Positions 10,203-32,622 of a stretch of 64,000 nt of DNA are shown here, in pieces. Positions within the stretch are counted from its first letter, which is position 1. Each line of letters starts with the position of its first letter. A program made the position numbers and the translations under genes. The stretch comes from Colwellia sp. (lineage in GTDB: Bacteria > Pseudomonadota > Gammaproteobacteria > Enterobacterales > Alteromonadaceae), in NCBI RefSeq assembly GCF_013214175.1, contig NZ_JABSPA010000001.1, positions 398,409-462,408 of the forward strand. Direction: 5' to 3'. The notes beneath the pieces are model-generated. The model saw only the letters and a list, made by a program, of their open reading frames with translations. It was not told where the DNA came from and did no database searches.

Positions 10203-10270
10203 TTGTGCGCATTCCGGACGTTAGCCTTTAATTTTTTGCCTTATATTTTCTAATGAATATTTTATGTCAT

Positions 10271-10502: not shown

Positions 10503-10540
10503 AAGCTGTTAGGCTGTAAAACAAATTGGAGAGTAGAATT

Positions 10541-10882: not shown

Positions 10883-10978
10883 CAAGGGTTTTCAAGTCGG
10901 ACAAATTACAGTTGGCTTTTTGTTCGTACCTCACTTATTTTAGCCAACTACAATCTGCCGCTTAAAACGGCGTTATGT
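10877..10978 (+). repeat. attC site 1
   Basis: Starts GCCTAACAAGG and ends GGCGTTATGT. Inner arms CAGTTGGCT and AGCCAACTAC pair; the outer arms GGACAAATTA and AATCTGCCG pair loosely. Confidence 0.9.
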
Positions 10979-11023
10979 GTTTTTGTAGTTTGGGTGAAAA
11001 TCTCAATATTTAAGGATTAATTT

Positions 11024-11266: not shown

Positions 11267-11275
11267 ATCAAACAC

Positions 11276-11375
11276 ATAACAAGCTGTTCAAGTGGGACAA
11301 ATTACAGTTGGCTGGTTCCGCTCCGCTGCACATTTTAGCCAACTACAATTTGCCCCTTAACAGGGCGTTATGCAT
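11276..11375 (+). repeat. attC site 2
   Basis: ACATAACAAGC at the left, GGGCGTTATGC at the right, inner arms CAGTTGGCT/TAGCCAAC. The track ORF starting at 11308 begins inside this site. Confidence 0.92.
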
Positions 11376-11406
11376 ATACTCATTTACCGGTAGGAAGTTT
11401 GAATCA

Positions 11407-11949: not shown

Positions 11950-11959
11950 TAAATAATAT

Positions 11960-12060
11960 GCCTAACAAGCTGTTAAACAAGGACAAAAAACAGTTAGTTT
12001 TTGCTCCTTCGTCGCTTATTTTAACCAACTATTTTATTGCCTGTTAACAGGGCGTTATGT
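11960..12060 (+). repeat. attC site 3
   Basis: GCCTAACAAGC ... GGGCGTTATGT. The inner arms carry a paired change relative to neighbours: CAGTTAGTT on the left with AACCAACTA on the right. Confidence 0.9.
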
Positions 12061-12067
12061 GGTCCCC

Positions 12068-12841
12068 ATGAAGTTAAGCCTATACAAATATTTAGCCTAT
12101 GATGACGGCGCCAAAGCTTTACTAGAAAATAGTACATTAAAGTATAGTCATTTTAGTGAGTTCAATGATCCGTTTGACTGCGTTGTGTCTTATGATGTTG
12201 AAGATTCTCTTGTGTACTACCAATCTAGAAAAGACTTGATTAAAGCAGTAGGAGATAATCTAGGTTACAGTCCCTCAGAAAGAATCGAAAAGATGCCTAA
12301 ATTATTAAAAAATCTCGAAAAATCAATTGAGAGTGGTGATTTTCATAAAAGCATATTAAGTCGAATTGGTATTTGTTGTTTATCAAGTGTATCTGACAGT
12401 ATTTTAATGTGGTCGCATTATGCTGACCACCATAAAGGTATCGTCGTTGAATTCGATACTTTTCAAGATGAATACACAGAATTACATGACGTTGAGCAAA
12501 CATTATTAGGCTATCCAATTGTTTATCAGAATCAAATGCCCAGAATTAGTGCTCGCAATAGTCACGATGGTTTTTCAGCAGTACAAAGTTCAATTCTAAC
12601 TAAGTCACTTAGTTGGGAGTATGAAAATGAGGTGCGAGTTCTCTCAACTCGTTTAGGACCAGGTATTCATAAATTTGATCACACCCTCATATCCAGAGTT
12701 ATTACGGGTGTAAAAATGATAGATAAGGATCACTTAGATTTAGTTCAACGTGTTGCAAAAATAAATAAATCTAATGGGTTGTCAATAAAAGTGGTTAAAG
12801 CCAAAATGAGCAACGATAGCTATAGCGTAATCACCACATAA
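12068..12841 (+). CDS. DUF2971 domain protein
   Basis: 257 aa. It has the family marks KLSLYKYL at the N-terminus, FSEFNDPFDC near residue 36, and SILMWSHYADHHKGIVVEFD near residue 118, followed by a WEYENEVRV block. DUF2971 proteins are soluble, of unknown biochemistry, and frequent in mobile and defence-rich regions. Start ATG 12068 is preferred; the track GTG start lies within the attC 3 core. The stop codon sits in the attC 4 left arm. Confidence 0.88.
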   Translation: MKLSLYKYLAYDDGAKALLENSTLKYSHFSEFNDPFDCVVSYDVEDSLVYYQSRKDLIKAVGDNLGYSPSERIEKMPKLLKNLEKSIESGDFHKSILSRIGICCLSSVSDSILMWSHYADHHKGIVVEFDTFQDEYTELHDVEQTLLGYPIVYQNQMPRISARNSHDGFSAVQSSILTKSLSWEYENEVRVLSTRLGPGIHKFDHTLISRVITGVKMIDKDHLDLVQRVAKINKSNGLSIKVVKAKMSNDSYSVITT

Positions 12842-12933
12842 CAAGCTAATTAATAAGGACAAAAAACAGTTGGCTGTTTTCGTTCCTCAACATTTTAGCC
12901 AACAATTTTTTGCCCATTATTAGGGCGTTATGT
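12836..12933 (+). repeat. attC site 4
   Basis: ACATAACAAGCTAATTAATA ... TTATTAGGGCGTTATG. Inner arms CAGTTGGCTG and TAGCCAAC. Nearly the same as attC 5, with matched changes in both arms. Confidence 0.93.
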
Positions 12934-12954
12934 TGTTCAAGGAAGTCTGAGTCC

Positions 12955-13332
12955 ATGGAGAGGTCTGTATCAACTATCATCATTTTTTTACTACTGTTAC
13001 CTATTTCAGCTCATGCTGAAGTTATGGATAAAGAGCCATCACTTCAATTTAATTTTATTTGGGGCATTGGCGGCTCTATAGCCACGCTACTTTGTGCTAG
13101 ATACAAACCTAAATTCTTACCTTTAATTACCTTACTCCCACTATTTTACTTTTATGCACTGTGGGAAGAAATAAATGATCCACATGTTGGCCCACAGATT
13201 TTGAGAGAGGCTGGTGAATTTTACATTCACAGTGCATACGCTCTTGGTATATCTGTTATTTCTTGTATACCTATTGGGCTATTATGGTTTTGGTGGTATA
13301 AACAACATAACAAGCTAATAAATAAGGACTGA
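12955..13332 (+). CDS. Small membrane protein with signal peptide, cassette
   Basis: Unrecognised, 125 aa from ATG 12955 (AAGGAAG nine nt upstream). A signal peptide (STIIIFLLLLPISAHA) is followed by hydrophobic segments and a C-terminal helix (ALGISVISCIPIGLLWFWWY). The last codons and stop run about 25 nt into attC 5, so the cassette site encodes the C-terminus. Confidence 0.72.
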   Translation: MERSVSTIIIFLLLLPISAHAEVMDKEPSLQFNFIWGIGGSIATLLCARYKPKFLPLITLLPLFYFYALWEEINDPHVGPQILREAGEFYIHSAYALGISVISCIPIGLLWFWWYKQHNKLINKD

Positions 13333-13402
13333 AAATAGTTTGCTGTTTTCGTTCCTCAACATTTTAGCAAACAATTTTTAGCCCATTATTAGGGCGTTAT
13401 AA
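13305..13402 (+). repeat. attC site 5
   Basis: ACATAACAAGCTAATAAATA ... TTATTAGGGCGTTATAA. Inner arms TAGTTTGCTG and TAGCAAACAA keep pairing although both differ from attC 4. Confidence 0.93.
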
Positions 13403-13419
13403 GCACCGGAAGCTTGAGT

Positions 13420-13752
13420 ATGATTCATAGGATAGTGGCAATCTCATTAATCTTTATTTTCTTATTAATTTTCACTGGGAAATTTGAGTATTATAGTGGT
13501 TTTAACACTTCACAAGCCGCTGTAAGTGAGTTTGATTCGGAAGTATCAGAAGATGCAGCAGGTGGCATTTTATATGTATATTTAATTGCTGCGTTTAGTT
13601 GTTACTGTTTATTATTCCCTAATTCAGTATCTGAGAAATTATCACCTCGTACAGGTAATATGCAAACACTACTGCTTAAAGACGACTTTTGGCTTATTGT
13701 CGGTTACTTTTCAGTTGCAGTAACCTTTTTAGTATTAGAGGCTTTCAGGTAA
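13420..13752 (+). CDS. Small membrane protein in a cassette
   Basis: Unrecognised 110-aa protein with three hydrophobic stretches (IVAISLIFIFLLIF, ILYVYLIAAFSCYCLLF, FWLIVGYFSVAVTFLVL). Start ATG 13420 follows CCGGAAG; the TTG six nt earlier is less likely. It lies alone between attC 5 and attC 6. Confidence 0.7.
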   Translation: MIHRIVAISLIFIFLLIFTGKFEYYSGFNTSQAAVSEFDSEVSEDAAGGILYVYLIAAFSCYCLLFPNSVSEKLSPRTGNMQTLLLKDDFWLIVGYFSVAVTFLVLEAFR

Positions 13753-13756
13753 TGTG

Positions 13757-13861
13757 CTTATAACAAGCCAATTAAAGTGGACAAATAACAGCTTGGCTTT
13801 TTGTTCACTTCGTTCACTAATTTTAGCCAAGTATTATTTGCCCGTTATTGGGGCGTTAGTT
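13757..13861 (+). repeat. attC site 6
   Basis: GCTTATAACAAGCC ... GGGGCGTTAGT. Inner arms CAGCTTGGCT and AGCCAAGTA are again a paired variant of the usual GTTGGCT/AGCCAAC. Confidence 0.9.
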
Positions 13862-13880
13862 ACCAAGGAAAGGTTAGAGT

Positions 13881-14372
13881 ATGATTCGTAGTTTTATTAA
13901 TAAATTTGGTTCGATTTTGTATGTCCAGATATGGGAAAACCGTATCAGAGTTGTTGATTTAAAAACTAATGAAGTGTTTGATGAGAAACCTTTACTTCAA
14001 ATCGAAACAGGAAAGAATGGAAGTAAAGTAGTTACAGCCTTTGGTAACAGCGCTTATATTAGTACAGTAAATCCCTTTTCTCACCCCAGGGCATTACTTA
14101 ATGACTTTTATATTGGGGAACGTTTACTTCAACTAATCGTAAAAAAACTTATTGGCAAAAAATTTATAACTTCGGCTCCTCAAATAATTATTCATCCAAT
14201 GGAAAAAACAGATGGTGGTTTAACCATGATAGAAGTTAGAGCATTTAGAGAAATGGCGTTGGGAGCTGGTGCAAGTGAAGTTGCAATACATCAAGGTAAA
14301 GATACATTGGAGTTATCAAAAATAATTTTCAAAGATCTTATAAAAGATGATGAACATTTAGTATTTAAATAA
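13881..14372 (+). CDS. MreB-like actin-fold fragment protein
   Basis: 163 aa resembling the first part of MreB: a short beta start (GSILYVQIWENRIRV), an AFGNSAYI / FSHPRALLNDF block in the place of MreB's VGxxAKxM...RPLxxGVIADF, and a piece reading IIIHPMEKTDGGLTMIEVRA followed by FREMALGAGASEV, which matches MreB's ...TxVExRAxxEaaxxAGAxxV. It is less than half the length of MreB and lacks the C-terminal phosphate-binding motif, so it cannot be a normal filament protein. Short relatives are known as stand-alone genes. Start ATG follows AAAGGTTAG. Confidence 0.7.
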   Translation: MIRSFINKFGSILYVQIWENRIRVVDLKTNEVFDEKPLLQIETGKNGSKVVTAFGNSAYISTVNPFSHPRALLNDFYIGERLLQLIVKKLIGKKFITSAPQIIIHPMEKTDGGLTMIEVRAFREMALGAGASEVAIHQGKDTLELSKIIFKDLIKDDEHLVFK

Positions 14373-14377
14373 TTGGC

Positions 14378-14480
14378 AACTAACAAGTAAATCAACAAGG
14401 ACACGTAACAGTTGGCTACGTTTCGCTTCGCTACACAATTTTAGCCAACCATTACTTAGCCTGTTATTTGGGCGTTAGCT
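14378..14480 (+). repeat. attC site 7
   Basis: CTAACAAG ... GGGCGTTAGCT. Inner arms CAGTTGGCT and TAGCCAACCA. Differs from attC 8 at only about three positions. Confidence 0.93.
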
Positions 14481-14498
14481 ATTCAATCAAGGATGTGT

Positions 14499-15104
14499 AT
14501 GTACTCTAAAATATTAACTACTTTTTTCTTAATCTTTTCATTTCATGCAGTTGCCGGTGTTTCAATCACAACAGTGAGTAAAACAAAGAATGAATTGAAA
14601 ATTAAAAGCTCTCTTGAGTCTCTACAAGAAAAGTATGATCTAACTCCTTGGATTATTACTGATGTCATCGAGGTCGATGAAAAAGCAAGAATGCCTCGAA
14701 GCCATCCAGTTTTAACGATGAGTACAAAGGATGAATATTTAAAAAGCGATATTAAGCTTCTTTCATCTTTTCTTCATGAGCAATCTCACTGGCATGTAAT
14801 TAAAAATGGTCGTGGTAGTAAGTCAGAGTTCAGAGCTGCAATAAAGGCTAATTTTCCAAATGTTCAATTTGAACGGCCATTAGGCAGTGGTACTGAAGGT
14901 GGCACCCTTAGTCATATAATTGTTTGCTATCTAGAGTATGTTGCACTTTCGGAGCTTATTGGTAAAGAAAAAGCTATTCAAAACCTATCAACAAACGACT
15001 ATTACACTTGGGTCTATCAAACAATTATTAACTCAGAAAATCATGATAAATTAGATCGTCTTGTTCAAAAGTTTGGCTTAGGTTTTGGCGTAAATAATAG
15101 CTAA
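14499..15104 (+). CDS. Secreted HExxH putative metalloprotease-like protein
   Basis: 201 aa with a signal peptide (ILTTFFLIFSFHAVAG). The zinc-metallopeptidase signature HEQSH (in LSSFLHEQSHWHV) lies near residue 95. A conserved-looking acidic region (CYLEYVALSEL) about 55 residues later could give a third zinc ligand. Start ATG 14499 is chosen because AAGGA lies directly before the ATG at 14493. The family is not recognised; protease activity is inferred from the motif. Confidence 0.68.
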   Translation: MYSKILTTFFLIFSFHAVAGVSITTVSKTKNELKIKSSLESLQEKYDLTPWIITDVIEVDEKARMPRSHPVLTMSTKDEYLKSDIKLLSSFLHEQSHWHVIKNGRGSKSEFRAAIKANFPNVQFERPLGSGTEGGTLSHIIVCYLEYVALSELIGKEKAIQNLSTNDYYTWVYQTIINSENHDKLDRLVQKFGLGFGVNNS

Positions 15105-15201
15105 CAAGAAAATCAACAAGGACACGTAACAGTTGGCTACGTTTCGCTTCGCTACACAATTATAGCCAACCATTACTTAGCCTGTTATTTGGGCGTTATC
15201 G
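15099..15201 (+). repeat. attC site 8
   Basis: AGCTAACAAG ... GGGCGTTATCG. Almost identical to attC 7, including the loop CTACGTTTCGCTTCGCTACAC. The stop codon of the preceding gene is in its left arm. Confidence 0.93.
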
Positions 15202-15627
15202 ATACAAAATCTAATCCTAATCACCGCTACTGATTAAATGCTAATGTCCGCAATGTGGTAAAAGTGAGCCTTAGCTTTTAACCAATGAATAGTGAAAGAC
15301 AGTTCAATGCTAATGACTTCTTGGTGCGCAAAGTTGAAGTTAACTTCAAAATATTTGCGATATATTTTCTAATGAATGTTTATTTTATTGTTAGTGTGTT
15401 CCTATACAGTAGGCTGTGATTCCTGCTTTCTACAAGAAAGAGCGGATATTTCCTCCTTTCACACATCGAACAGTTGATTGGTTATTTTTAACTCATTGAT
15501 CTACAGACAACAATCAAGTAATCTCGCATGATTATAAATTATTGACGATTAACTCCACCTTGTAGAAAAAAGGGATTTTTCCTCATAATAAAGCTGTTGA
15601 TTCGACCCCGAAAATGTAGAGATTAAT
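15202..15627 (+). other. Non-coding leader after attC 8 with repeated block and palindromes
   Basis: No ORF. Contains ATACAAAATCTAATCC directly after the attC, then TAATGTCCGCAATGTGG (15242-15258); both words recur next to the minus-strand attC at 23629, and the first also after the site at 20088. A perfect 16-bp palindrome TTGAAGTTAACTTCAA lies near 15333. Words TTCTACAAG and CTTGTAGAA, each followed by GGATwTTTCCTC, form an inverted/direct pair in the last 200 bp before the HEPN gene and may be its promoter region. Confidence 0.6.
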
Positions 15628-16893: not shown

Positions 16894-16948
16894 TGCTTTG
16901 TTAAATCTTACAATGACTTTTATCCAATAAACAGTGTAGCGTATAATC

Positions 16949-17046
16949 ACATAACAAGGCAATTAAACGGAACTAAAACAGTTGGTTAAGTTTCGTGCCT
17001 CAACATTATAACCAACAATTTTAGTCCGCTTATTGCGGCGTTGGTG
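16949..17046 (+). repeat. attC site 9
   Basis: ACATAACAAGGC ... TTGCGGCGTTGGTG. Inner arms CAGTTGGTTA and TAACCAAC pair with changes on both sides. The outer arm ends TCCGCTTATTGCGGC. Confidence 0.9.
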
Positions 17047-17102
17047 AGCAAATCAAAATCCAGGCTGTAAAGTAGCGATTAATGAGCAGTAAGGTGAATT
17101 AT

Positions 17103-17708
17103 ATGAATCCATTCTTGGAAGAACTTTTTGATATCATTGCTATTGATGCTGAGTATCTAAATGGGTACTTAACACCAGGTGAGATGAAATATCTAAATAT
17201 CACTTTGAAGTCTATAGAAGATTTGAATAGCGATTTCTACACAGCAGAACATGGTTTAAACCTAGAAGTTTTACTTTTCTTTTTATTGAAACATTTGAAG
17301 GATATTACACTAATTTGGGAAGATCGTAGTAAAAAGGAAATTCTGCTTAGGTTATATACATCAAACATAATCTCTGGCTATGATTGCTTCCGTTTTGATC
17401 TGTCTAAATTTGAGCAAACATTTAACCCAAGTGGACAAGAGTTGACTTTATATCGAATTGGTCGTGCGAATGAGACTATAGAAAGCCTCGGGAATTCATG
17501 GGCTAAAGACTTCACAGGACTAAAAAATTATGTTCAAGCATCAGCTATAGAGGTGGATACCCGACCTATATTTTCTATAAAAATTAGTGATTCAGAGGTT
17601 TTGTGTCAAGGGCAATCGCAAGAAAGTGAATTTATCTTAAATAAAAATTTCAAATGTAGTGGTATTAGATTACTAAGGGCTGAAGAGCGTAGTAAAATTT
17701 TTATTTAG
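17103..17708 (+). CDS. Possible ADP-ribosyltransferase-fold cassette protein
   Basis: 201 aa from ATG 17103, which has AAGGTG six nt upstream (the track ATG at 17082 has no such site). The C-terminal half carries, in order, LTLYRIGR, SLGNSWAKDF and GQSQESEFIL. This resembles the R / S-T-(S) / E-x-E order of R-S-E type ADP-ribosyltransferases. The N-terminal half is helical and unrecognised. The assignment is inferred from motif order and spacing only. The attC that should follow is reduced to about 20 bp. Confidence 0.5.
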   Translation: MNPFLEELFDIIAIDAEYLNGYLTPGEMKYLNITLKSIEDLNSDFYTAEHGLNLEVLLFFLLKHLKDITLIWEDRSKKEILLRLYTSNIISGYDCFRFDLSKFEQTFNPSGQELTLYRIGRANETIESLGNSWAKDFTGLKNYVQASAIEVDTRPIFSIKISDSEVLCQGQSQESEFILNKNFKCSGIRLLRAEERSKIFI

Positions 17709-17732
17709 TAAATAGTGCTAAGAAATGCTTCA

Positions 17733-17752
17733 CCTAACAAGGCATTATGTAT
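17733..17752 (+). repeat. Collapsed attC remnant
   Basis: CACCTAACAAGGCATTATGT joins the left simple site of an attC directly to the end of its right site; about 80 bp between them are missing. The genes on either side would now move as one cassette. Confidence 0.6.
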
Positions 17753-17770
17753 TACAACGGAGTTTTGAGC

Positions 17771-18118
17771 ATGATGAAAAAATATTTTATTTCCCTGTTC
17801 GTTTTTTTTGTTCTTCAGGGCTGTGGAACTCTCGATAATAAAACTATTTTAATCGATGCTGGAGACCCTAAAGAGAAGGTTATTGAAATACTTGGAATAC
17901 CATACGACCGACAATTTCAAGGACAACAGGAAGCATGGCAATATTGTGTTTCAGGTGCAGGATTTGGCTATAACGACCACAAAATAATTTGGTTTACTGA
18001 TAAAAAAGTAACTGGTATCACTACATATAGAACAACTCGAAGTGGCTGTACTGGCTCTGTAAAAACAATAAAATGGGAAGATGCTCCTGACTTTACAATT
18101 GAAGTGCGTGATAGGTAA
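17771..18118 (+). CDS. Small lipoprotein, SmpA/BamE-like
   Basis: 115 aa from ATG 17771 (ACGGAG upstream). The signal peptide ends in a lipobox, LQGC. The mature part, GDPKEKVIEILGIPYDRQFQGQQEAW, has the G-x-x-x-x-V...LG-x-P pattern of SmpA/OmlA-type domains, and IIWFTDKKVTGI gives a later strand. Membrane-anchored; the partner is unknown. The gene shares a cassette with the ART-like gene because the attC between them has collapsed. Confidence 0.72.
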   Translation: MMKKYFISLFVFFVLQGCGTLDNKTILIDAGDPKEKVIEILGIPYDRQFQGQQEAWQYCVSGAGFGYNDHKIIWFTDKKVTGITTYRTTRSGCTGSVKTIKWEDAPDFTIEVRDR

Positions 18119-18215
18119 TGCATAAGCCAATCAAGCAGGACGAAAAAACAGTTGGCTGTTTTTGTTTCTCAACATTTGAGCCAACTATTTTTTGCCTGTT
18201 AACAGGGCGTTAGTA
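18119..18215 (+). repeat. attC site 10 (degenerate left end)
   Basis: Left end reads TGCATAAGCC instead of xxTAACAAGC; the rest is normal (CAGTTGGCTG / GAGCCAAC, GGGCGTTAGTA). Confidence 0.82.
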
Positions 18216-18262
18216 GTCAATTTGTATCGACCACCGCATATTCAAAAAGAGAAGAAGTAGAA

Positions 18263-19225
18263 ATGGAACCTACAGTATTTATATCTTATTCCCATGATGA
18301 TGAATCACATAAAGATTGGGTATTACAGCTTGCTACAAGGCTGAGATCTAACGGACTTAATGTCTTATTAGACCGTTGGAATCTGAAGTTAGGTCAAGAT
18401 TTAGCTTCATTTATGGAAAGAGGGTTATCTGCATCAAATAGAATAGTTAGCATTTGTTCAGAAAGTTATGTTCAAAAAGCCAATGATGGATATGGCGGTG
18501 TCGGATATGAAAAGCAAATAATGACGGCAGAATTGATGTCTGATTTAAATACAAACTGGGTAGTACCAGTAATCAGAAATAATAGCACAGCTAAAAAGGC
18601 GCCTATTTTTTTAGCTGGGAGGCTATATGTTAGCTTTGAAAATGAATCTTTATATGAAAATTCTTATGAAGAGTTATTACGTGAATTGCTAGATGAACCA
18701 GTACTTCCTATACCACTAATAGGAGAAAACCCATTTAAAACGGCTAAATATTTTGCAGAGCAAAAATTTATACCTGCCTCGGAAAAGTATGTTTCACCTG
18801 CGGTTAAAGGGACTGTAACTTTTGATTACTCAAACAACAATGGGCATTATTTTATTGGGCAAGGCCAATTGGCATTCGAGTTAGATTTTTCTAAATCAAG
18901 TGACAGGTGTATACAGCTTTATAATGATCCACAGAATATAAGAACGGTTGCTGTAGTAAAGGATCGTCACTCTATCTCCGATATCGATGATGCAAGAGTT
19001 TATGATGGTTCATCTAGAGTTCGAAGACCAAACCTTAATCAAATAGCAGTAGTACAAAATGTAAATGGCTTTTTTGCAGCAATAAAAATTATAGACATAA
19101 AAGATGATACTCGTGGCAGTGAATCTGACGAGGTGTCGTTCGAATATGTGATACAAACAAATGGTAGCCCAGATTTCACATCTACTGGTCAAGACTGCAT
19201 ACAAGGCGTTCAAACGGACAAATAA
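18263..19225 (+). CDS. SEFIR/TIR domain protein
   Basis: 320 aa. Residues 4-150 form a SEFIR (TIR-related) domain: FISYSHDDESHKDWV at the start, LDRWNLKLGQDL, and YGGVGYEKQIMTAEL. The C-terminal 170 residues are beta-rich and unrecognised; they include a Trp-free repeat-like text GTVTFDYSNNNGHYFIGQGQ. TIR-family domains in bacteria commonly act in anti-phage signalling or NAD+ depletion; whether this one is catalytic cannot be read. The ORF ends about 28 nt inside attC 11. Confidence 0.85.
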   Translation: MEPTVFISYSHDDESHKDWVLQLATRLRSNGLNVLLDRWNLKLGQDLASFMERGLSASNRIVSICSESYVQKANDGYGGVGYEKQIMTAELMSDLNTNWVVPVIRNNSTAKKAPIFLAGRLYVSFENESLYENSYEELLRELLDEPVLPIPLIGENPFKTAKYFAEQKFIPASEKYVSPAVKGTVTFDYSNNNGHYFIGQGQLAFELDFSKSSDRCIQLYNDPQNIRTVAVVKDRHSISDIDDARVYDGSSRVRRPNLNQIAVVQNVNGFFAAIKIIDIKDDTRGSESDEVSFEYVIQTNGSPDFTSTGQDCIQGVQTDK

Positions 19226-19296
19226 CAGCTGGCTTTTGCTCCTTCGTCGCTAATTTTTAGCCAACTATTTTATTGCCCGTTAACAGGGCGTTGGTC
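19197..19296 (+). repeat. attC site 11
   Basis: Left end GCATACAAGGC (ATACAAG instead of TAACAAG), right end GGGCGTTGGTC. Inner arms CAGCTGGCT / AGCCAAC. Confidence 0.85.
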
Positions 19297-20463: not shown

Positions 20464-21660
20464 CTAATTCAACATTAAGGGCGGTGCACGAGGCAAATAC
20501 AAGTGCGGTAAGACTTCAGTGACTTCCATGCCTGCGCCACAGCAAGGACACACAAAGGTAGCTGCTGGCTCATGCGTTTTTGTCTCACCCGATATCTCTT
20601 TATCCAATGGCACTATCGGGACTTTAACGTTTAATAACTGTCGTGCTTTATCCAAGTTCTTCTTACGACCTGTATTCGCTGTCAAACCGTAATGACGAAT
20701 ACGGTGAAAACCACTGGGTAACACATGCAGCAAAAAACGTCGGATAAACTCATCGTGAGTCAGCATCATGGTGCGGTGTCTATTCTGCTCTTTAACGCGA
20801 TAGTTCTTCCACTTGAAACTGACCGTTTGTTTATCCATAGCAACCAATCGTGAGTTTGCGATAGCAACCCGATGTGTGTATCTCGATAGATAAGCCAATA
20901 CAGCTTGTGGCCCTGCAAAGGGTCGTTTGGCATAAACCACCCATTCAACGTTACGTTGATTGTTTAGCCACGCCAAAAAAGGTATTTCTTCCTCAATAGG
21001 CAAACACTTACCAAAGAACAGTAACTCATTATGCTCAAAGGCTTCGCGTAACATCTCAAGATATAATCGTCGAAATAAACGTGATAACACGCGTACAGGT
21101 AAGAAGAATCCTGCTTTACACGACACCCAGTTTTCACCATCAAGCGATAAGCCACCACCCGGTACAATGCCATGCACATGGGGATGATGCGTCATGGCAC
21201 TGCCCCACGTATGCAAGACAAAAGTCACACCTAAGCGAGCACCTAAATGTTTAGTATCCGCGCCAATCGTTAACAGTGTTTTGGCAGCGGCTTTGAGTAA
21301 CAAAGCATACATTACCGACTTATTGTAATAAGCCAACTCACTAATGGCGTTGGGTAACGTAAATACCACATGATAGTAATCCACTGGCAATAACTCAGTT
21401 TGTCTAGCAGTTAACCAACGTTTCGCTGCGCTGGCTTGGCACTTTGGGCAATGACGATTGCGACACGAGTTATAGGCAATTTGAGTATGCTCACACGCAG
21501 GGCAATGTAAAACATGACCACCGAGCACTTCACTGCGGCAATGCTCAACGGCAGACATCACTTTGAGTTGCGCTAAACTGACATGGCCTACATGACTATC
21601 ACGCCAACGTTGGCCGTGTGCTCGAAAGACATCGGCGACTTCCCGTGTTGGGCGAGGCAT
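20464..21660 (-). CDS. IS91-family HUH (Y2) transposase
   Basis: 398 aa. It has an N-terminal zinc finger CPACEHTQ...CRNRHCPKC (residues 57-80), the HUH metal site HHPHVHGIVPGGG, and the tyrosine pair in YLSRYTHRVAI. It catalyses rolling-circle transposition. The C-terminus has a CPCCGAGM pair that may bind a second zinc. It appears full-length. Confidence 0.93.
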   Translation of the reverse strand: MPRPTREVADVFRAHGQRWRDSHVGHVSLAQLKVMSAVEHCRSEVLGGHVLHCPACEHTQIAYNSCRNRHCPKCQASAAKRWLTARQTELLPVDYYHVVFTLPNAISELAYYNKSVMYALLLKAAAKTLLTIGADTKHLGARLGVTFVLHTWGSAMTHHPHVHGIVPGGGLSLDGENWVSCKAGFFLPVRVLSRLFRRLYLEMLREAFEHNELLFFGKCLPIEEEIPFLAWLNNQRNVEWVVYAKRPFAGPQAVLAYLSRYTHRVAIANSRLVAMDKQTVSFKWKNYRVKEQNRHRTMMLTHDEFIRRFLLHVLPSGFHRIRHYGLTANTGRKKNLDKARQLLNVKVPIVPLDKEISGETKTHEPAATFVCPCCGAGMEVTEVLPHLYLPRAPPLMLN

Positions 21661-21667
21661 GAGCGGC

Positions 21668-22546
21668 TCAATGCTTTATCGACAATGAATCTAATGGGCT
21701 GATAACTTGTCTGAGTAGATCAGTGGCCACTTGCGTATACCGCGCCGTGGTATTCAGTTGAGCATGCCCTAGTAATACCTGAATCACGCGAATATCTACA
21801 CCCGCTTCAAGTAAGTGCGTAGCAAAACTATGACGTAACGTGTGCATTGATACATTCTTGTCAATGGCCGCGGCCTTAGCGGTTTGTTTACATATTCTAC
21901 TGAGATGGCGAGAGGTCATATGATCGATAGGGTTCAAGCCAGGAAATAACCAACTACCTTCAAACATTTGGCCTTCATTGTTCGCAAAACGCCACCAATC
22001 CCGAAGATGCTCAACCAGTGCGGGTGATAACAGCGCATAGCGATCACGACTGCCTTTACCTTGCTCAATACGCAGGATCATACGCTCACTATCGATATCA
22101 CTCACTTTTAAAGCCACCACTTCACTGACACGTAATCCCGAGCCATAACCGACGGCTAACGCGGCTTTGAATTTAGGATGCATGGTACAAGACATAAAGC
22201 GCTTAGCCTCGTCTAGACTCAGCACCACAGGTAACTTACGTGCAACCGTCACAGGACAAACCCGTGCGATGACTTCAGGTTTATCGAGTGTTATTTTGAA
22301 TAAGAACTTAAGTGCGGTTAGCGTGGCATTGACGGTGATACCAGAAACACCGTGAGTGACCATGAAAAGTTGGAACTCACGCAACTCTTCTTGGGTGGAT
22401 GTTTCAGGAGAGTGTTGTAAAAATTCACAGAATTTATTAACACCACGGATATAAGAAATTTGTGTGTTAGTGGCGAGTTTACGCAGGATCATGTCTTCGT
22501 TGATGCGCTGACGCAGTGGTACTGAAAAGTATGGGCTGATGTTCAT
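21668..22546 (-). CDS. Tyrosine recombinase associated with IS91 element
   Basis: 292 aa with a SAM-like N-terminal domain and a complete catalytic set: R in YGSGLRVSEV, K in GKGSRDR, H-x-x-R in MHTLRHSFATHLLEAG, H in LLGHAQLNTTARY with the Y. It lies directly upstream of the IS91 transposase. The IntI-specific stretch between the catalytic boxes is absent, so it is not an integron integrase. Confidence 0.92.
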   Translation of the reverse strand: MNISPYFSVPLRQRINEDMILRKLATNTQISYIRGVNKFCEFLQHSPETSTQEELREFQLFMVTHGVSGITVNATLTALKFLFKITLDKPEVIARVCPVTVARKLPVVLSLDEAKRFMSCTMHPKFKAALAVGYGSGLRVSEVVALKVSDIDSERMILRIEQGKGSRDRYALLSPALVEHLRDWWRFANNEGQMFEGSWLFPGLNPIDHMTSRHLSRICKQTAKAAAIDKNVSMHTLRHSFATHLLEAGVDIRVIQVLLGHAQLNTTARYTQVATDLLRQVISPLDSLSIKH

Positions 22547-23628: not shown

Positions 23629-23724
23629 TCGATTACGCCCCACTATGGTGCGAGTAATAGTTGGCTTAAATGTGTAGCGAAACTGAATCAACTGTTATTT
23701 GCCCGTTTGAACGTCTTAATAGCA
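23629..23724 (-). repeat. attC site 13, minus orientation, mutated cores
   Basis: Read on the minus strand: degenerate left site TATTAAGACG, arms CAACTGTTATT..., AGCCAACTATTACT, right end GGGGCGTAATCG (GTAATCG in place of GTTATCG). Followed by ATACAAAACCTAATCC, as after attC 8 and 12. Confidence 0.78.
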
Positions 23725-23730
23725 TTTTAT

Positions 23731-24375
23731 TTACGATGTACTATCTGCTGTACTTAGTGTGTTTGACAATAACTTTTTAAAATCGCAATTGTTTTTATCA
23801 ATTGATTTTCTTAGTTTTTCTGCCCCAGAACTATCACCTATTTCTTTATTAACTAATTTAATTATTTGATACCTAATAACATTTAATTGAGATAGTAGAT
23901 CTTCTTTTAGTAGCCATTGGATTAGTACCATTTTATCATCTCCAGCTTCATGACTTTTTTTATTCATTTTGATCATGATACTGATGATTTCAAAGTTTTT
24001 TAATTCGATTTCGGCAGAAATATCATCTTTAGCAATAACGTGAAATTGGTCTAAAGCACCAACCATATTTCTAGTGGAGTTAAGTAAATTTGAATGAAAC
24101 TCTTCAGACTTTACATATGGATCAATGATACTGATTAACGCTGACCTGTATTCACTCATAAATTTTATAAAGTTAAGTGATACATCTTTCTTACGAGTTA
24201 AGTTTAAATCGTCTAGATGTTTAAGCCAAGTAAATAAAATTCCTAAAAGGACAACTATCACTGATAAAAATGGAATAGTAATCGTTGATGACAAATCAGT
24301 TTTAACTAATTCACTTGCTGTAAAACCACACAAAAAGAGCAGTAAAAAGAGCAGTAATAACGCTCGTGTCTTCAT
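23731..24375 (-). CDS. Membrane-anchored hypothetical protein, cassette
   Basis: Unrecognised, 214 aa. Two N-terminal hydrophobic helices (RALLLLFLLLFLCGFTAS and ITIPFLSVIVVLLGILFTWL) are followed by a long helical, charged cytoplasmic domain. Start ATG follows AAGGATATTTT on the minus strand, directly after attC 14. Confidence 0.7.
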   Translation of the reverse strand: MKTRALLLLFLLLFLCGFTASELVKTDLSSTITIPFLSVIVVLLGILFTWLKHLDDLNLTRKKDVSLNFIKFMSEYRSALISIIDPYVKSEEFHSNLLNSTRNMVGALDQFHVIAKDDISAEIELKNFEIISIMIKMNKKSHEAGDDKMVLIQWLLKEDLLSQLNVIRYQIIKLVNKEIGDSSGAEKLRKSIDKNNCDFKKLLSNTLSTADSTS

Positions 24376-24424
24376 CGTGAAAATATCCTTATTTAAAAAT
24401 AACAGTTAATTATGGATCAACAAA

Positions 24425-24520
24425 TGCTAACGCCGCAATAAGCGGCATGTAATTGTTGGCTAAAATGTGAAGAGAATCTGAAGTTGGCCTACTGCTACAT
24501 GTCCGAATTCATTAGCTTGT
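24425..24520 (-). repeat. attC site 14, interrupted by IS110
   Basis: On the minus strand this piece runs from ACAAGCTAATGAATTCGGAC to GCGGCGTTAGCA. Its first bases are separated by the IS110 element from the rest of the left site, GTGCCTTAACAAG, at 25724-25736. Removing the element restores a continuous GCCTTAACAAGCTAATG. Confidence 0.85.
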
Positions 24521-24579
24521 ATGGATAATACATCCATCTTTTTATTCTTTTCAAAACCAGTTTAGGTAAAGTGAGGCCC

Positions 24580-24744: not shown

Positions 24745-25698
24745 ATGAATACACAAAATAATCAAAATTAAATTAACGTCGGTGTCGATACCGGTAAAAC
24801 TCAACTCGACATTTACATACGTCCCTTAGATATTTATTTCAACGTTTCGAACGATGAAACTGGTATTAAAGAGGCCATTAAAACAATCAAAAAATACAAT
24901 GTTACCCGTGTGGTTATTGAAGCCACTGGCCGATTAGAACAGCCTTTTATAATGGCGTGTGCAAAAGCTAATATACCGTTTATTATTGCCAATCCTGTCA
25001 ACACCAAAAGGTTTGCAGGTGCCATTAATCAAAGAGCCAAAACAGATAAATTAGATGCACAATTAATTGCCCATTATGCAGAAGTTATCAAACCTAAGTT
25101 ATCACAATTAAAGCCAGAGCAGATAAGGCTGATGAGTGATTTACTATCACGTAGACGTCAGCTTATGGAAATGCAAACCATGGAGAAAAACCGTCTGCAA
25201 ATAATGCCCAAAGAAATAACTTCTTCTATTAAGCCTATGCTTACAGTGATAAAAAATCAGTTAGAAAAAACAGATAATAAATTACATAAACTCATCGAAA
25301 GCTGTGAAGAATATAAAACTAAAAATGACATTGTTCAAAGCATCCCTGGTGTTGGAAATGTCGTGGCCTTTAACTTAATTAGTGAAATGCCCGAGCTCGG
25401 CTATATCAACAATAAAGAGGCGGCATCATTAGTCGGTGTCGCTCCTTTTAATAGGGACAGTGGCTCGTATAAAGGCAAACGAATGATACGAGGTGGACGA
25501 TCACAAATTAGAACAGCCATTTACATGGCAATGATGTCCGCGATTCAATGTAATCCAACATTTAAAGCAACATATCAACGATTAGTTGCTGCAGGGAAAC
25601 CTAAAAAAGTAGCGATAATAGCGTGTATCAGAAAGCTTGTTATCACGCTAAATTCTATGGTGAGAGATGGTGTCTATTGGGATCCTAAAATGAATTAA
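24745..25698 (+). pseudogene. IS110-family transposase with early in-frame stop
   Basis: Reading from ATG 24745 gives MNTQNNQN, then TAA (24769-24771), then INVGVDTGKTQLDIYI and the full RuvC-like DEDD domain (IEATG, KTDKLDAQLIAHYA). The Tnp20 domain follows, with the conserved serine region PFNRDSGSYKGKR. The track start GTG 24910 would omit the first catalytic Asp (VDTGK). The gene is therefore either inactivated by one stop codon, read through, or started at a non-ATG codon such as ATT 24772. Otherwise full length. Confidence 0.85.
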
Positions 25699-26225: not shown

Positions 26226-26235
26226 TGGGAGTCTC

Positions 26236-26541: not shown

Positions 26542-26943
26542 TTAATATTTGATTTTTGGTAAGTAGGTCTGCTTTGAAGTGCCATTTTTATAGTCGGTGA
26601 TATCATCTTGCAATGCCTCGATAACATTAAGTTGTGCTTCGCAAATAGACGCCAGTTGGTCGCGCTCTTTCTTGCAGGCTTCATAGCGTTCCTCAATGGT
26701 TCGTTTCTTGCGAAGCGCTTTCTTTTTAATATCAACTTCGCTGTCAATATTTTGTAGCTTCAGATAATCTTGAATCTCCAAAACAAGCAGTGGGAAACGG
26801 TCCTTCTTAAGCGCCGTTGGATGCTTACCTGCCTCTTTAGCTACGTTGTTTTGGCTAACTGCAGTACCTTTAGCCACGTTGAGTGGAGTATTACTTTTTA
26901 GTCGCTTATACGCCTCTCTAAATATATTCTCGGCTTTACTCAT
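26542..26943 (-). CDS. srap: Small recombination auxiliary protein (Srap/TnpC-like)
   Basis: 133 aa. The N-terminus has the HTH-like text AVSQNNVAKEAGKHPTALKK, and the C-terminal half is a charged coiled coil (KKRTIEERYEACKKERDQLA). Tn554 TnpC and the Srap proteins of SE elements share this plan and assist recombination. Its ATG overlaps the stop of the 659-aa gene by 4 nt, so it is translationally coupled. Confidence 0.65.
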   Translation of the reverse strand: MSKAENIFREAYKRLKSNTPLNVAKGTAVSQNNVAKEAGKHPTALKKDRFPLLVLEIQDYLKLQNIDSEVDIKKKALRKKRTIEERYEACKKERDQLASICEAQLNVIEALQDDITDYKNGTSKQTYLPKIKY

Positions 26944-28919
26944 TTTACATTCCCTTTTTTAGAATCAATGACAGCTAATACTCTTTCATAACCTCTCATT
27001 TCCGCTTTTAACGAACTGTATTTAGGTGAATCTTTAGGGAAATCATTCATTTGGTTTTCATAGTATTGTTTATCTTCCGTAAATTCCTGACGCTTAGAAC
27101 CATCAATAATTAAGTCAGTACACATGTTGCTGCTATTCCCGCCAGAGCAGTGAGTAACAGTTTCAAAACCACCATACTCACAGGAACCTTGCTTCATACA
27201 GCCACCAAGTAAGTTTTTGCGATAACCAATAGCGCCATTTTTTTGAGCTGCTCTGAGTTTTTTATGTTCGCCATTTGTTACAAAATGCACTATCTCGGCC
27301 TTGACGGGGGCTTTACTATGCGGAAGCACTTTACCGTCATCCCCTTCAGTTACCGCAATGATTTCTCTTGCCATTTCATTGTAAAATTCGAGTGTAACCT
27401 CTTGGCTTGCTAATATATTTAATTTTAATCGACCATGATTATTCATATAATGAAACTGTTGCTCACGAGTACCATGCTTCATTTGGAATTGCCCTGTTGC
27501 GGCAGAGACGTCATTCAACGCAAACATGACAGCTAATGTCCGCCTGAACTGGTGATAACCAAAAGCCCAAATACCTCCTACTTTAAACCATTTTTCTCTT
27601 TCAAGCGATGGCGTTAATGCAATCGCCTTATCAAAGTCATCTTGTGTGATTTTGTACTTTTCTACCCCCCAAAATGTAGCGTGACGACTCATAATGTTGT
27701 GCGCATTGCGAGTATTTAAGGCTTTATAATTGTGTACAGATTCAACCCAAACATCGACGCGTTGGAATAGATATGGAGATTCACTGTCATTTGTCAATTT
27801 TAAATGACTCTGCTTCCACTCAACCAATGTTTTAGCAACCTCCACCGCCTTCTGAACTCGATGATTGACTATCCACCTAGCATCGGATTCTGGGTCTGTT
27901 TTTGTGGTTTCACCAACAAGCATAAAGAAATTGCCGAGTCGTTCATCCTTTTCAACAATCAAGCAATCGGTTCTTAATGACTTAGCCTCACTCATTCTCA
28001 TAAGAGAATAAAACAGGACGTAAAAATAACAAGCAGTTACCGTCGCATTTAAACGGGCACCAAACTTTTTTATCGTATAGTCACGCAAGGTTCCTTCAAT
28101 AATATGATGTTTTTCGTACCATTCACTAAGGCCATGGTCTCTTAGGAATGACTTGAAAGAAGCGTATTTAGTCAAATAGTTCGGAGTCTTTTCAGCAAAA
28201 GGAGATATCGAACACGATGCACTTTTCGCGTTTTTTTTATTTTGAATCAGAGTGCGGGTAATCCAATGATAAGCCTTTTCAAGTTTGTCTTTATTTTCTA
28301 TAAAATCATCGAGAACCCCATCTAAATGGTGAATGAAATTATTCCAAATTGCAGGGGGGATGTAGGCAATTTGCCCTAATTCGTATTCGGGGTTAAATAG
28401 GGAAAAGTGAGCGATGGACTTTGCATCCAGCAAATGAAATCCGATTTGCTCTTGGTTTTTCAATAGACTGGTAAACAACCAAACAGCACTTTTAAATTCA
28501 GACTTTGCTTGAGAGTTCGCAATCTGCTCAATGACCCGTGGGAACTGCCTCAATTCATCGGCACAAATACCTTGCTCGCTACACGCTTTAAATACTTTTT
28601 GTAAAATTTTGTATGGGGCTATTAGAGAAAGGTATTTACCAGGAAATAAATGACTATAAATTTTATAAAACATGATTTTCTTGAATAGTGTTTTATTTAC
28701 ATCGTCATATTTTTTGAAGTGCATTTTACGAGTTGAACCAAACACGCTAAAATCCCACACGTCATCCCCATATCGCGATATCACTGTACCATCTTCATTA
28801 ATCGACATTGCAAAGTCATCATTAGGAGGGTAGGCAATAGATTTAAAGCATGAAGATTTTTCTGTGACAAATTCAAACTCAGCTCTAAATTGGAGGTTTT
28901 CAATCGTGTTTTGTTGCAT
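26940..28919 (-). CDS. intB: Tyrosine recombinase IntB-like (659 aa)
   Basis: Catalytic set in order: R in FYSLMRMSEAKSLR, H-x-x-R in FGYHQFRRTLA, H and Y in MKHGTREQQFHYM. A C-terminal cysteine cluster (GGCMKQGSCEYGG...HCSGGNSSNMC) probably binds metal. The length suits the IntB/TnpB group. It acts with the small protein and the 431-aa recombinase to excise or circularise the element. It starts 2 bp after the 552-aa gene ends. Confidence 0.75.
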   Translation of the reverse strand: MQQNTIENLQFRAEFEFVTEKSSCFKSIAYPPNDDFAMSINEDGTVISRYGDDVWDFSVFGSTRKMHFKKYDDVNKTLFKKIMFYKIYSHLFPGKYLSLIAPYKILQKVFKACSEQGICADELRQFPRVIEQIANSQAKSEFKSAVWLFTSLLKNQEQIGFHLLDAKSIAHFSLFNPEYELGQIAYIPPAIWNNFIHHLDGVLDDFIENKDKLEKAYHWITRTLIQNKKNAKSASCSISPFAEKTPNYLTKYASFKSFLRDHGLSEWYEKHHIIEGTLRDYTIKKFGARLNATVTACYFYVLFYSLMRMSEAKSLRTDCLIVEKDERLGNFFMLVGETTKTDPESDARWIVNHRVQKAVEVAKTLVEWKQSHLKLTNDSESPYLFQRVDVWVESVHNYKALNTRNAHNIMSRHATFWGVEKYKITQDDFDKAIALTPSLEREKWFKVGGIWAFGYHQFRRTLAVMFALNDVSAATGQFQMKHGTREQQFHYMNNHGRLKLNILASQEVTLEFYNEMAREIIAVTEGDDGKVLPHSKAPVKAEIVHFVTNGEHKKLRAAQKNGAIGYRKNLLGGCMKQGSCEYGGFETVTHCSGGNSSNMCTDLIIDGSKRQEFTEDKQYYENQMNDFPKDSPKYSSLKAEMRGYERVLAVIDSKKGNVK

Positions 28920-28921
28920 CG

Positions 28922-30580
28922 TTATGCCTCATACTTCTGTATTTTTCGTTCCCAACTGGGGTGATATTCGCCTTCGTCAATTCGCATTTTCGCTTCTTCA
29001 ATCCATTCTTTATGTACTGAGTTTTCAGATCTATTGAACCAATTTATTTTTGAGTTCACCCAGTCAATCGCGATGTTCGACGGTTTTTGTCCATCGTCCA
29101 GATATGAGCTTGATTCAATGACCTTTAAGTATCGGAAGCTAAAAAGGTTCCATACGTATACTAATGAATCATCGTCTCTATAATTCTTACACCCCATACA
29201 GCCGCTTGGGGTTAAACAGTCAGGCTTTGCGAGTTTATCGGTTGCATCATCAAAGGGTACTGGTTCACCTGTACAAGCAGTACTGAATAAGGACAACTTG
29301 GGCTCTCCATGCTCTAGTGGGTCATTAGCCTCCCAGAAACGTGTAAGCTCAACCGCTGCTCGCTGTTGGGAAGGAAATTCATAGGACTCTCGAAAAATCT
29401 CCAAGCTATGATTGCCGTGGTCTGCTGTGGCTTGTTCATCAGATGACAGTCTTAATAATATATTTAGACCTATCTTCCTAAAGTTTTTCGGTGCAATAGT
29501 GGGGATACTATAAGTTCTTGCTAATTTTGTACCTGTAGCCCAATCAGAATCCCTTCTTTTCCTATAAGCACCTTCATGGGTGAGCATAGGAAATAGATGT
29601 CCATTGCTCTCGGCATACTCGCGTATGAACGTTAAATATGCCTCAAACGACTTTCTGTATGGTTTGGGGATTTTAAAAAGCACTTCGCCGCCTCTACGGT
29701 TTTTAAATGCTCGCACTTCATAATTTTCACCCATCGGTTTAAAATCACAATCTTGCATTCTTAAGCTGAACGTTGGGGCGGGGTTTTGCATGGTCATCGC
29801 TAGAAACATTAAACACTCAAAGGCCACTCTATTATTAAAGGCATGTCTTGCGGCAGTCTCTGTATAATCGCCAGAGACAACAGTGTCATCTTTAATAACG
29901 GGGGTGAGATTTATTTCTGTTGCGGTTAATTCCTTTCGCACATTAACTAAGATGGGTAATTTTTTGCTATTTAGTAATTTGGGGTCAAAGTTGTTACATA
30001 TATCATAAGCGAACTTAGCAAACTTAGCCGCATCTTCAAGATTCGTTTTATCAGCCTCGCGACTTATAGCTCTGCGTGAGTTTCTCTTTGGCTTTAACCG
30101 TGTCGATTTAATATCAATACTGTCTAGTTCAGTGATTGCTGATAACAATTTGGATAAGTGGTAACAAGCTTTATAACCAGAGCCTTGTTTAAATTTTATT
30201 TTATTTTGCTGCTCACGAATAAACTCATATTCAGCGAACGTATAAAAAGCGGTTTGAATATCGTTAGCTATATCAATTGATATATTTTTTTTATCACAAA
30301 AAGAGATGAATACTTTTAAAAATTGGATGCGGCCTTTAGCGCTCGATGAGGCCATTTCGCCGATGTCCAAGCACCCTTCGATATGTTCCTTTGCTTTAAC
30401 TAGCCATTTAACTCGATGTTCAACGACTGAAAGTTTATAAACATTATTAAGATATTTTTTACTTCTATGCACCTTCCCTCCGCCATTAAAGGCCATAGGT
30501 GTTAAGTCCCAAGCACCTGACTCTGGCTGCTCAATTCTTCGATGCACAACTATTAAGTTTGGTAGCTTTTCATCCATCAT
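28922..30580 (-). CDS. tfp: Tyrosine recombinase-fold protein without full active site (Tfp-like)
   Basis: 552 aa. In the place of catalytic box I it reads MTMQNPAPTFSLRMQD, without the T-G-x-R arginine. Box II-like FRKIGLNIL lacks the usual H-x-x-R histidine, and DHGNHSLEIFRESYEF keeps a histidine and a tyrosine. A cysteine cluster CLTPSGCMGC precedes the C-terminus. It is probably a structural subunit rather than a catalyst, as for Tfp of SE elements. Its start overlaps the end of the 431-aa gene by 11 nt. Confidence 0.7.
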   Translation of the reverse strand: MMDEKLPNLIVVHRRIEQPESGAWDLTPMAFNGGGKVHRSKKYLNNVYKLSVVEHRVKWLVKAKEHIEGCLDIGEMASSSAKGRIQFLKVFISFCDKKNISIDIANDIQTAFYTFAEYEFIREQQNKIKFKQGSGYKACYHLSKLLSAITELDSIDIKSTRLKPKRNSRRAISREADKTNLEDAAKFAKFAYDICNNFDPKLLNSKKLPILVNVRKELTATEINLTPVIKDDTVVSGDYTETAARHAFNNRVAFECLMFLAMTMQNPAPTFSLRMQDCDFKPMGENYEVRAFKNRRGGEVLFKIPKPYRKSFEAYLTFIREYAESNGHLFPMLTHEGAYRKRRDSDWATGTKLARTYSIPTIAPKNFRKIGLNILLRLSSDEQATADHGNHSLEIFRESYEFPSQQRAAVELTRFWEANDPLEHGEPKLSLFSTACTGEPVPFDDATDKLAKPDCLTPSGCMGCKNYRDDDSLVYVWNLFSFRYLKVIESSSYLDDGQKPSNIAIDWVNSKINWFNRSENSVHKEWIEEAKMRIDEGEYHPSWERKIQKYEA

Positions 30581-31865
30581 AACGGCCTGTTAAGCCTTCG
30601 ACTAATTCGTCAGTTTGTTCAACACTACCTGTGAACATTGCCCATAATGATTCATAGAACGCTTTATCTTGCGGCACTTTATTGATAAACGCCACATACT
30701 TCCAAGTCGTTGAAGCGTCTTTATGGAGCATGGCATCTCGCACAAATTCAATCGCACCACTACTTGAGATAGCCTTTGAATTTAAACAATGTTCCATCGT
30801 CATCGTTCCGAAAGTCGCTCTTAATTGATGGAATTTGAAACGACCAAATTCGGTATGACCTAGCTCGACCAATTCAGCTCTCAATCTACCGATAATCGTT
30901 GAGAACGATGCTCTTGTATATAGGTTGCCACAAGAGGTTAAGAATATGTTTTTTATATGTTCGTTGGACGCTTTAGAACGCCTGAGTATTGCTTCAGCCG
31001 AATCATAGTAATCAACAAGCTCTTGAAGTAATACCTGAGGAAACATGATCGGTCCGCTCACATCGAACTTAGTTTTAACAGCCGTTGATGGGCCAACACT
31101 TACTCTCATTATGTGTTTCATGTTGGGATCTTGATAAGCGTTTTTTAACGCTTCAGAGGTCAGCGTTGAAATTGTTTCGTAACGACAACCTGTTTGAATA
31201 GCAACTTTATGAAATAAATATAGTTCATAGTTACTATGATTTGTAAGGTGTAGCATTAGGGTGTCTAATGATTCTTTGTTCAATGGGAGCAGCCCATCCT
31301 CTAATGTTACCCCCGTTCTTCTTTTATTAGGTATGAATAGTTCCGAAGACATAACGTTCATCGTTCTTGAAAATCCAGTCCTATCAAAGAACTTAACTGC
31401 CTTGGATTTTTCTTCCCACATATCATACCTGCATTGAGCAAGCATTTCTCGTGAGGCCCAGCGGTAGAAATTTAAAGTTGAATTCATTACAGCAGATACT
31501 GTTGATGGTGCTAAATGATGATTCTCTCGACATTCAATCAAGAAGCCTTTAAACCGAAACAAGCAACGCTCTCGCTTCTTCTTTGGGAAGTGAAGCCAGT
31601 GAATATTCCCTTTCTCAAGCCAATCAGCATATCTGGCAATGTGACTCATTTCACGGCTTACTGTGTTTAATTTCATTCGTGAATCGTAGAAACGGCTAAA
31701 GGCATACTGGTTGGCTTCTTTCCAAGGCTCCCCATCTGCTGAGTATATTTGTGGAAATGACTTAACAAGCTTGGACTTAGGTTTTGGGATAAACCCATGC
31801 TTAGCATCTGGAGACAAAGGACTATATATCATTGATTGATGATATATGGTTTCTAGGACTGACAT
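30570..31865 (-). CDS. intA: Tyrosine recombinase IntA-like (431 aa)
   Basis: First gene of the operon. Catalytic residues: R in IQTGCRYETISTL, H-x-x-R in FKFHQLRATFGTM, and H then Y in MLHKDASTTWKYV. The DNA-binding N-terminal domain spans about residues 45-170. In SE elements intA lies next to one end of the element, so that end is expected in the 700 bp to the right. A terminator-like hairpin (31982-32002) shields the operon from outside minus-strand transcription. Confidence 0.75.
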   Translation of the reverse strand: MSVLETIYHQSMIYSPLSPDAKHGFIPKPKSKLVKSFPQIYSADGEPWKEANQYAFSRFYDSRMKLNTVSREMSHIARYADWLEKGNIHWLHFPKKKRERCLFRFKGFLIECRENHHLAPSTVSAVMNSTLNFYRWASREMLAQCRYDMWEEKSKAVKFFDRTGFSRTMNVMSSELFIPNKRRTGVTLEDGLLPLNKESLDTLMLHLTNHSNYELYLFHKVAIQTGCRYETISTLTSEALKNAYQDPNMKHIMRVSVGPSTAVKTKFDVSGPIMFPQVLLQELVDYYDSAEAILRRSKASNEHIKNIFLTSCGNLYTRASFSTIIGRLRAELVELGHTEFGRFKFHQLRATFGTMTMEHCLNSKAISSSGAIEFVRDAMLHKDASTTWKYVAFINKVPQDKAFYESLWAMFTGSVEQTDELVEGLTGRYDG

Positions 31866-32622
31866 AATTCATATCCAAAGTTATTAAGTTATAACAACAT
31901 TAGTATATGTATATTAAAGTATCTATAGGTGGTAAGTATATATGTAGTGGGTATGGTTGATAAGTTGACTGTAAAAAAAAAGCCCGCAAACTAAGTGCGG
32001 GCCAACTCAAATATCAAGTTGATATAAGGAAGTTAAATTCCAAGAAACATGTCAGAGAGAAAAGATAGAAATCTATCAGTTCAAGTAATCCGGTTAATGA
32101 TATCTCTTTGGGAGAAAGAGGAAGTATCATTGCGCTAACTCAGAAAACAAAGCTATCATAATAGCGATACAGCCTTCCGACAAACTAAAAAAAATACAGC
32201 TTTGTCATTAGAAAAACTAATGCGAAGCTATTGGTTTGATTGTTAAATAAATATAATGAATAATTATTCAAGGATACTGTTAATACGCCAATTAACGGCT
32301 TTTGTTGTGATTATTTATGCAACTCTTAATAAGTCTCTTTAATTAACACTGCTTTATTAATGAAGATTTAATCAATAAATTATTTGTAATTTTAGTATTT
32401 ACTTAAAAAATCTAATGTTGTTCTGCGGAGTTTTATGCCTGTCTGGGCAAAATCATGGTTTAAGGTCAGATGTTCTAATGCGCGTTTGATAGGTGTTGAT
32501 GGTGCAAATTGTTGATAGTTACTATATAGGTAAATTAAATGCAGGCAAAATTCAATATCGGGGATTTATTGGAGTCTTTGGATTTAAAATGAAGTTGGTA
32601 GCTATTGTTCTGTGTTGAAAGT
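31866..32622. other. Non-coding 750 bp between recombinase operon and sodB
   Basis: No gene seen. Expected to hold the right attachment end of the recombinase element and the old chromosome flank. Very AT-rich, with TATA-rich words (GTATATGTATATT, AAGTATATATG) just upstream of intA that may be its promoter. Confidence 0.5.
31973..32002 (-). terminator. Terminator upstream of intA
   Basis: GCCCGCA/TGCGGGC stem; on the minus strand it is followed by nine T. It would stop minus-strand transcripts coming from the sodB side before they reach intA. Confidence 0.75.

Follow-up and report, generated by a model that had tools for sequence, protein, structure and literature searches.

A structurally complete 29-kb SE of a marine gammaproteobacterium with cassette arrays headed by attI-type sites among its cargo

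Background

Integrons are a major gene-capture system of bacteria, and SEs are a recently defined class of elements known for moving resistance genes. A stretch of 64,000 nucleotides from Colwellia sp. (contig NZ_JABSPA010000001.1, positions 398,409 to 462,408; hereafter the window) raises the question of whether the two systems meet in one element. A first-pass annotation, made by a model from the letters and their open reading frames, read four coupled genes as an SE recombinase operon and noticed integron cassettes to their left, which might be its cargo. We asked whether the operon belongs to an SE, where that element ends, and on which side of its border the cassettes lie.

The recombinase genes and their relatives

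The four genes occupy one end of the element and share one strand (minus), in the order intA-tfp-intB-srap, with the start of intA about 0.1 kb from position 31973. intA (30570..31865) encodes a tyrosine recombinase of 431 aa, 34.7% identical to IntA of SE-PaeBT2436 (1.9e-81); tfp (28922..30580) a 552-aa protein with a predicted recombinase fold (28.1% to Tfp, 2.6e-63); intB (26940..28919) a large tyrosine recombinase of 659 aa (27.8% to IntB, 5e-80); and srap (26542..26943) a protein of 133 aa (45.1% to Srap, 1.5e-28). All the open reading frames are intact, and successive pairs are joined by an 11 bp overlap, a 2 bp gap and a 4 bp overlap. The layout read from the letters is borne out by homology to a published SE. 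Both IntA and IntB display the R..HxxR..H..Y pattern, that is, the RHRY residues expected of SE recombinases, and in IntB R308, K340, H456, R459, H482 and Y491 are identical in 82/82 homologues. None of the four proteins reached the curated cut-offs of Pfam and NCBIfam.

A single-query search with Tfp against genome contigs and viral contigs recovered no relatives, whereas a search with an IntB alignment found some: about 80 further loci, nearly all of which encode the core genes in conserved order, the exceptions being contig ends or short loci. One Tfp match lies on a Klebsiella plasmid that also encodes WP_034039553.1 and WP_023443007.1, the Tfp/Srap pair of SE-PaeBT2436 (PMC10214605). The IntB tree, which has no GInt outgroup, places the window gene among SE cores, on a long branch within a group (SH-aLRT 99) that includes Kangiella, an Aeromonas plasmid and a Pseudomonas MAG; the phylogeny thus agrees with the class assignment of the first-pass annotation. 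That the core might instead represent another trio system, such as a GInt, a RIT or a gamma-mobile-trio, is suggested by the similar layouts of those systems and by the IntB relatives in Betaproteobacteria, from which GInts and not SEs have been reported, SEs being described only from Gammaproteobacteria (PMC10214605). We regard this reading as very improbable, given the strong matches to the published SE Tfp/Srap pair, to which GinC gives none (PMC10214605), and the lack of any match in the window to the GmtY and GmtZ models.

Complete SE-like cores with Srap are encoded by Betaproteobacteria in 27 rows of the IntB tree (L149, L151, L153-L158, L174, L176, L203, L204, L207, L208, L222 and others). 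An SE-type IntB is also encoded by MT835978.1 (L242), an unverified 14.3-kb scaffold from human faeces named 'Bacteriophage sp.', which is possibly an SE labelled as a phage.

The active site of Tfp

The absence of the first catalytic arginine from the middle protein, remarked on in the first-pass annotation, proves to be a property of the family, as the Arg I position is occupied by Asn266 in 78/78 homologues (L146-L225). The His of the HxxR motif is likewise lost across homologues. K293, R368 and Y400 are invariant in the 78 homologues and H391 is present in 77/78 of them; this residue pattern holds for the whole family, SE-PaeBT2436 included. In a weak alignment to the XerD profile (E 0.43) R368, H391 and Y400 coincide with Arg II, the second His and the catalytic Tyr, and the predicted fold of Tfp (mean pLDDT 82) matches those of XerH, IntI and Cre. 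Tfp has been described as devoid of the RHRY motif (PMC10214605). As R368, H391 and Y400 are kept family-wide, they call into question this description of Tfp rather than the SE membership of the window element. Given the conserved residues and the modelled recombinase fold, Tfp may be catalytic or have a regulated function, and the invariance of Tyr and of further active-site residues suggests that the published non-catalytic view deserves re-examination. The cysteine clusters noticed in two of the proteins are also conserved: C436, C455, C461 and C464 are invariant among Tfp homologues, as are C574, C580, C591 and C600 among those of IntB, and these two sets of four suggest that both proteins may bind metal.

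Ends, spacers and target site

Comparison with the window revealed an empty site in 15 genomes of the same genus. In these genomes homology to the window restarts at 31974 (31976 in one), and a separate stretch spans sodB; in the nearest strain (sodB 99% identical; L006) the sequence beyond lolE continues uninterrupted into the sodB-side stretch. Read in the direction of the SE, attB is ..GCGGGC-TTTTTTTT-GTC.., the intA-side border of the window is ..GCGGGC-TTTTTTTT-TACAGTCAAC.. and its far border is ..GTTTACGGTA-TTTTTT-GTC... The comparison of attB with these two borders delimits an element at 2832-31973 (minus strand; 29,142 bp), with its attL (intA-proximal) end at 31973, its attR (distal) end at 2832 and a 6-bp T spacer beside each end. 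The spacers (T6/A6) were placed at 31974..31979 by the attB/attL alignment and at 2826..2831 by the attB/attR alignment, so that the 6-bp spacing characteristic of SEs is found in both attL and attR relative to attB. As both spacers are T6, the SE fingerprint rule is not readable here.

The end sequences that the first-pass annotation had proposed to seek were located as well. Motif C (TACAGTCAACTTATCAACC; 31955..31973, minus) forms the SE end at the empty-site boundary, and motif C' (TACCGTAAACAGACATAAG; 2832..2850, plus) reads ..GTA in the SE direction. C' matches C at 8/10 of the first bases, a score reached by 0.065% of random pairs, and at 10/19 positions overall; the element is thus bounded by imperfect inverted repeats in the 13-19 bp range of SEs, with a modest match. 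Immediately before the target T-run lies a terminator-like hairpin (GCCCGC..GCGGGC; 31982..32002, minus) that is conserved in the empty sites; the insertion occupies this T-run, between lolE and sodB, in what resembles a terminator. No tRNA was found within the 64-kb window, and an Rfam search of it returned no match. The G+C content of the element is 35.9% against 39-40% in its flanks, and a G+C content below that of the flanks is usual in SEs (PMC10214605).

The strain comparison thus moves the far end to 2832 rather than 26.3 kb, and since the empty site puts it there the cassette arrays lie inside the SE borders and count as cargo. Were the core alone the SE, the stretch from 2.8 to 26.3 kb would be an independent hot-spot island; the recognition of C' indeed depends on a repeat that is short and imperfect, and several mobile elements of unrelated kinds occur in the region. 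We judge this highly unlikely, because host sequence resumes at one target on both sides with the 6-bp T spacer and the GTA end, the fifteen relatives have no insert at the site, and the genome has no second Tfp gene. On the evidence of its sequence, the 29-kb element is a real and structurally complete SE with unusual cargo. Its movement is predicted from the core genes and their layout, the ends and the insertion footprint; no circular joint was seen, and no second copy of the SE core was found in the genus.

Cassette arrays and other cargo

Beginning at the attR end, the cargo comprises a homing-endonuclease-like ORF (3178..3906, plus; PHROG 314, 1e-10), a PDC-M06B-like candidate defence ORF (4026..4436, plus; PADLOC 2e-20), an ORF of 1265 aa with no match in Pfam, PHROGs or PADLOC (4863..8660, minus) and an IS4-family transposase (8814..9977, minus; NCBIfam). 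These are followed by cassette array 1 (10876..15200, plus; eight attC, a1-a8, cmsearch 85-107 bits), which includes a DUF2971/PDC-S31 cassette gene (12059..12841, plus; 1e-46), and by array 2 (16948..19295, plus; three attC, a9-a11, 80-92 bits) with a bSEFIR candidate defence gene (18263..19225, plus; 1.2e-71). Between the arrays and the core are an IS91-family transposase with a Xer-like integrase that is not an intI by cut-off (20464..22546, minus), a cassette remnant on the minus strand (23631..24526) with two attC (23631-23725 and 24426-24526; 44 and 91 bits), and an IS110-family transposase (24910..25698, plus; NCBIfam 7e-52), which brings the insertion sequences to three. A further cassette gene matches the PDC-S02 model (2.7e-7); the defence functions of the cassettes are candidates, resting on model matches.

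The attC sites were detected with a covariance model built from 12 sites. A scan with the strict attC consensus (RYYYAAC/GTTRRRY) yielded nothing useful, because the window sites deviate at R''. The presence of cassettes left of the core, and with it the suspected link between two mobility systems, is upheld by 13 attC within the mapped SE ends. The supposed common direction of the left-hand genes applies only to the two minus-strand sites of the remnant, as 11 of the 13 attC and their ORFs lie on the plus strand, opposite to the core. A pair of 32-bp inverted repeats (97%) occurs at 8728-8759 and 22834-22865, 14 kb apart, and flanks the IS4, both plus-strand arrays and the IS91; the arrangement suggests that the intervening 14 kb may have been inverted, which would account for the mixed strands, as turning it back would place all cassettes on one strand. 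A scan limited to the window attC type found none in the flanks examined at 80 other SE loci.

Each of the two plus-strand arrays is headed by a putative attI, homologous to sequences that adjoin intI in relatives. The attI-A-type site (10205..10510, plus; core ..AATAAGCTGTT) heads array 1 and has copies in 18 genomes, one of which adjoins intI. Within the source genome it shares 93-99% identity with three further copies and 85-88% with a fourth, and its 96-99% identity to the copy on contig C18 suggests capture within this lineage. The attI-B-type site (15387..15598, plus; core ..AATAAAGCTGTT) heads array 2 and is found beside intI in 10 genomes. Directly upstream of the resident intI on C18 lies a sequence with the end ..TTAATAAACTGTT that shares 76% identity with window 15392-15598. 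The genus has 65 other attI-B copies, and in 46 of them homology breaks off exactly at window 15598. This is the final T of GTT and adjoins the point, G^TT, at which IntI is known to cut; in the copies that were read the first cassette differs each time. The C18 gene is the sole full-length intI found in the assembly (456 bits), and none was found within the SE. The cargo thus combines attC arrays with attI-type sites, and its arrays are attI-headed and integrase-less; in the absence of intI in cis they do not constitute an integron. The first-pass idea of an integron fragment as SE cargo holds insofar as the arrays lie within the borders, and falls short in that there are two arrays, each with its own attI-type site, which is more than a fragment.

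A third attI-like site (AATAAGCTGTT) is seen near 26245 (window 26201-26440, minus) and possibly heads the minus-strand cassettes; the sequence upstream of it shows conservation in three genomes. The short flanks available in the three genomes contain no attC, and we do not claim this site.

Arrays across the genus

Two genomes of the genus are single contigs (G214 and G205; loci L226-L241), and in these 16/16 attI copies of either type are followed by a same-strand attC within 0.3-2.0 kb, whereas only about 1% of random positions have a same-strand attC within 2.5 kb. A lone intI occurs in one of the two genomes, where it adjoins one of five attI copies, and no intI was found in the other at E <= 1e-60. 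Arrays that are headed by an attI and lack intI are thus common in the genus, and the SE carries two of them. We found no description of such arrays in the literature searched, the coverage of which was incomplete; this pattern is the more novel part of the findings and is worth separate study. Arrays often close with a common tail, GTTATCGATACAAAATCTAATCC, which follows the last attC core directly. At window 15196-15597, L237 3074-3578 and L068 5973-6311 the tail after the last attC core gives way to an attI, which extends to the next GTT, and such a core-to-core piece resembles a cassette in which attI replaces attC. A distributed integron, in which a chromosomal IntI would serve many dispersed, attI-bearing and often tail-sharing arrays devoid of intI, and elements such as this SE would transport the arrays whole, attI included, from one genomic location to another, is a tentative reading that we rate as somewhat short of probable.

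A model for the origin and movement of the element

The attC and attI types of the SE cargo are the same as those of the host's own arrays, and it is probable that the SE acquired arrays of this host type within the genus. The SE inserted site-specifically into the T-run that separates lolE from sodB. Its movement most likely follows the course published for SEs: attL and attR would exchange a single strand under the action of IntA, Tfp, IntB and Srap, and the circle that is copied out, retaining the 6-bp left spacer, would insert at another T-rich site. The chromosomal IntI could load and shuffle the SE arrays in trans, and the SE would then carry them to new sites. We consider it very likely that site-specific T-run insertion, SE-type movement and the carriage of host-type arrays inside the borders together account for this locus.

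It is conceivable, though we lean somewhat against it, that a small SE arrived first and that arrays and insertion sequences accumulated later, as passengers that never moved with it. Repeated insertion is evident from the three insertion sequences and from the arrays in both orientations; the arrays match those of the host in type, and a search for a further copy of the loaded SE found none. No direct evidence counters such later accumulation; the arrays are nevertheless enclosed by intact ends and would travel with the SE if it moves. The preferred model of a loaded, mobile SE has wider implications, as a bounded SE with attI-headed arrays offers a concrete route by which cassettes might leave a sedentary integron, one that would need neither conjugation genes nor intI. 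SE-borne arrays also make testable the loading by IntI of arrays located elsewhere in the genome.

Comparison with known systems

The window element shares with SE-PaeBT2436, the tmexCD-toprJ SE (PMC10214605), the order intA-tfp-intB-srap and homology of all four proteins along most of their length, but the identity between the two cores is just 28-45%, and target and cargo differ. GInts likewise have a four-gene module with a recombinase-like third protein; their protein clusters are reported as separate from those of SEs (PMC10214605). With SE-6945 and SE-6283 of Vibrio alfacsensis (PMC9345347) the element has in common the 6-bp spacer and imperfect inverted repeats. The resemblance is closer for SE-6945, the C' of which also ends in GTA and which occupies a T-rich target after a putative terminator, a putative termination motif being marked at its attL (PMC9345347), much as the window target is a T-run after a hairpin. 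Compared by description, the cargo of these two SEs consists of a beta-lactamase or of little, with no cassette arrays described (PMC9345347). CALINs, as attC arrays with no intI in cis, resemble the window arrays, which differ from them in being attI-headed and in lying inside an SE.
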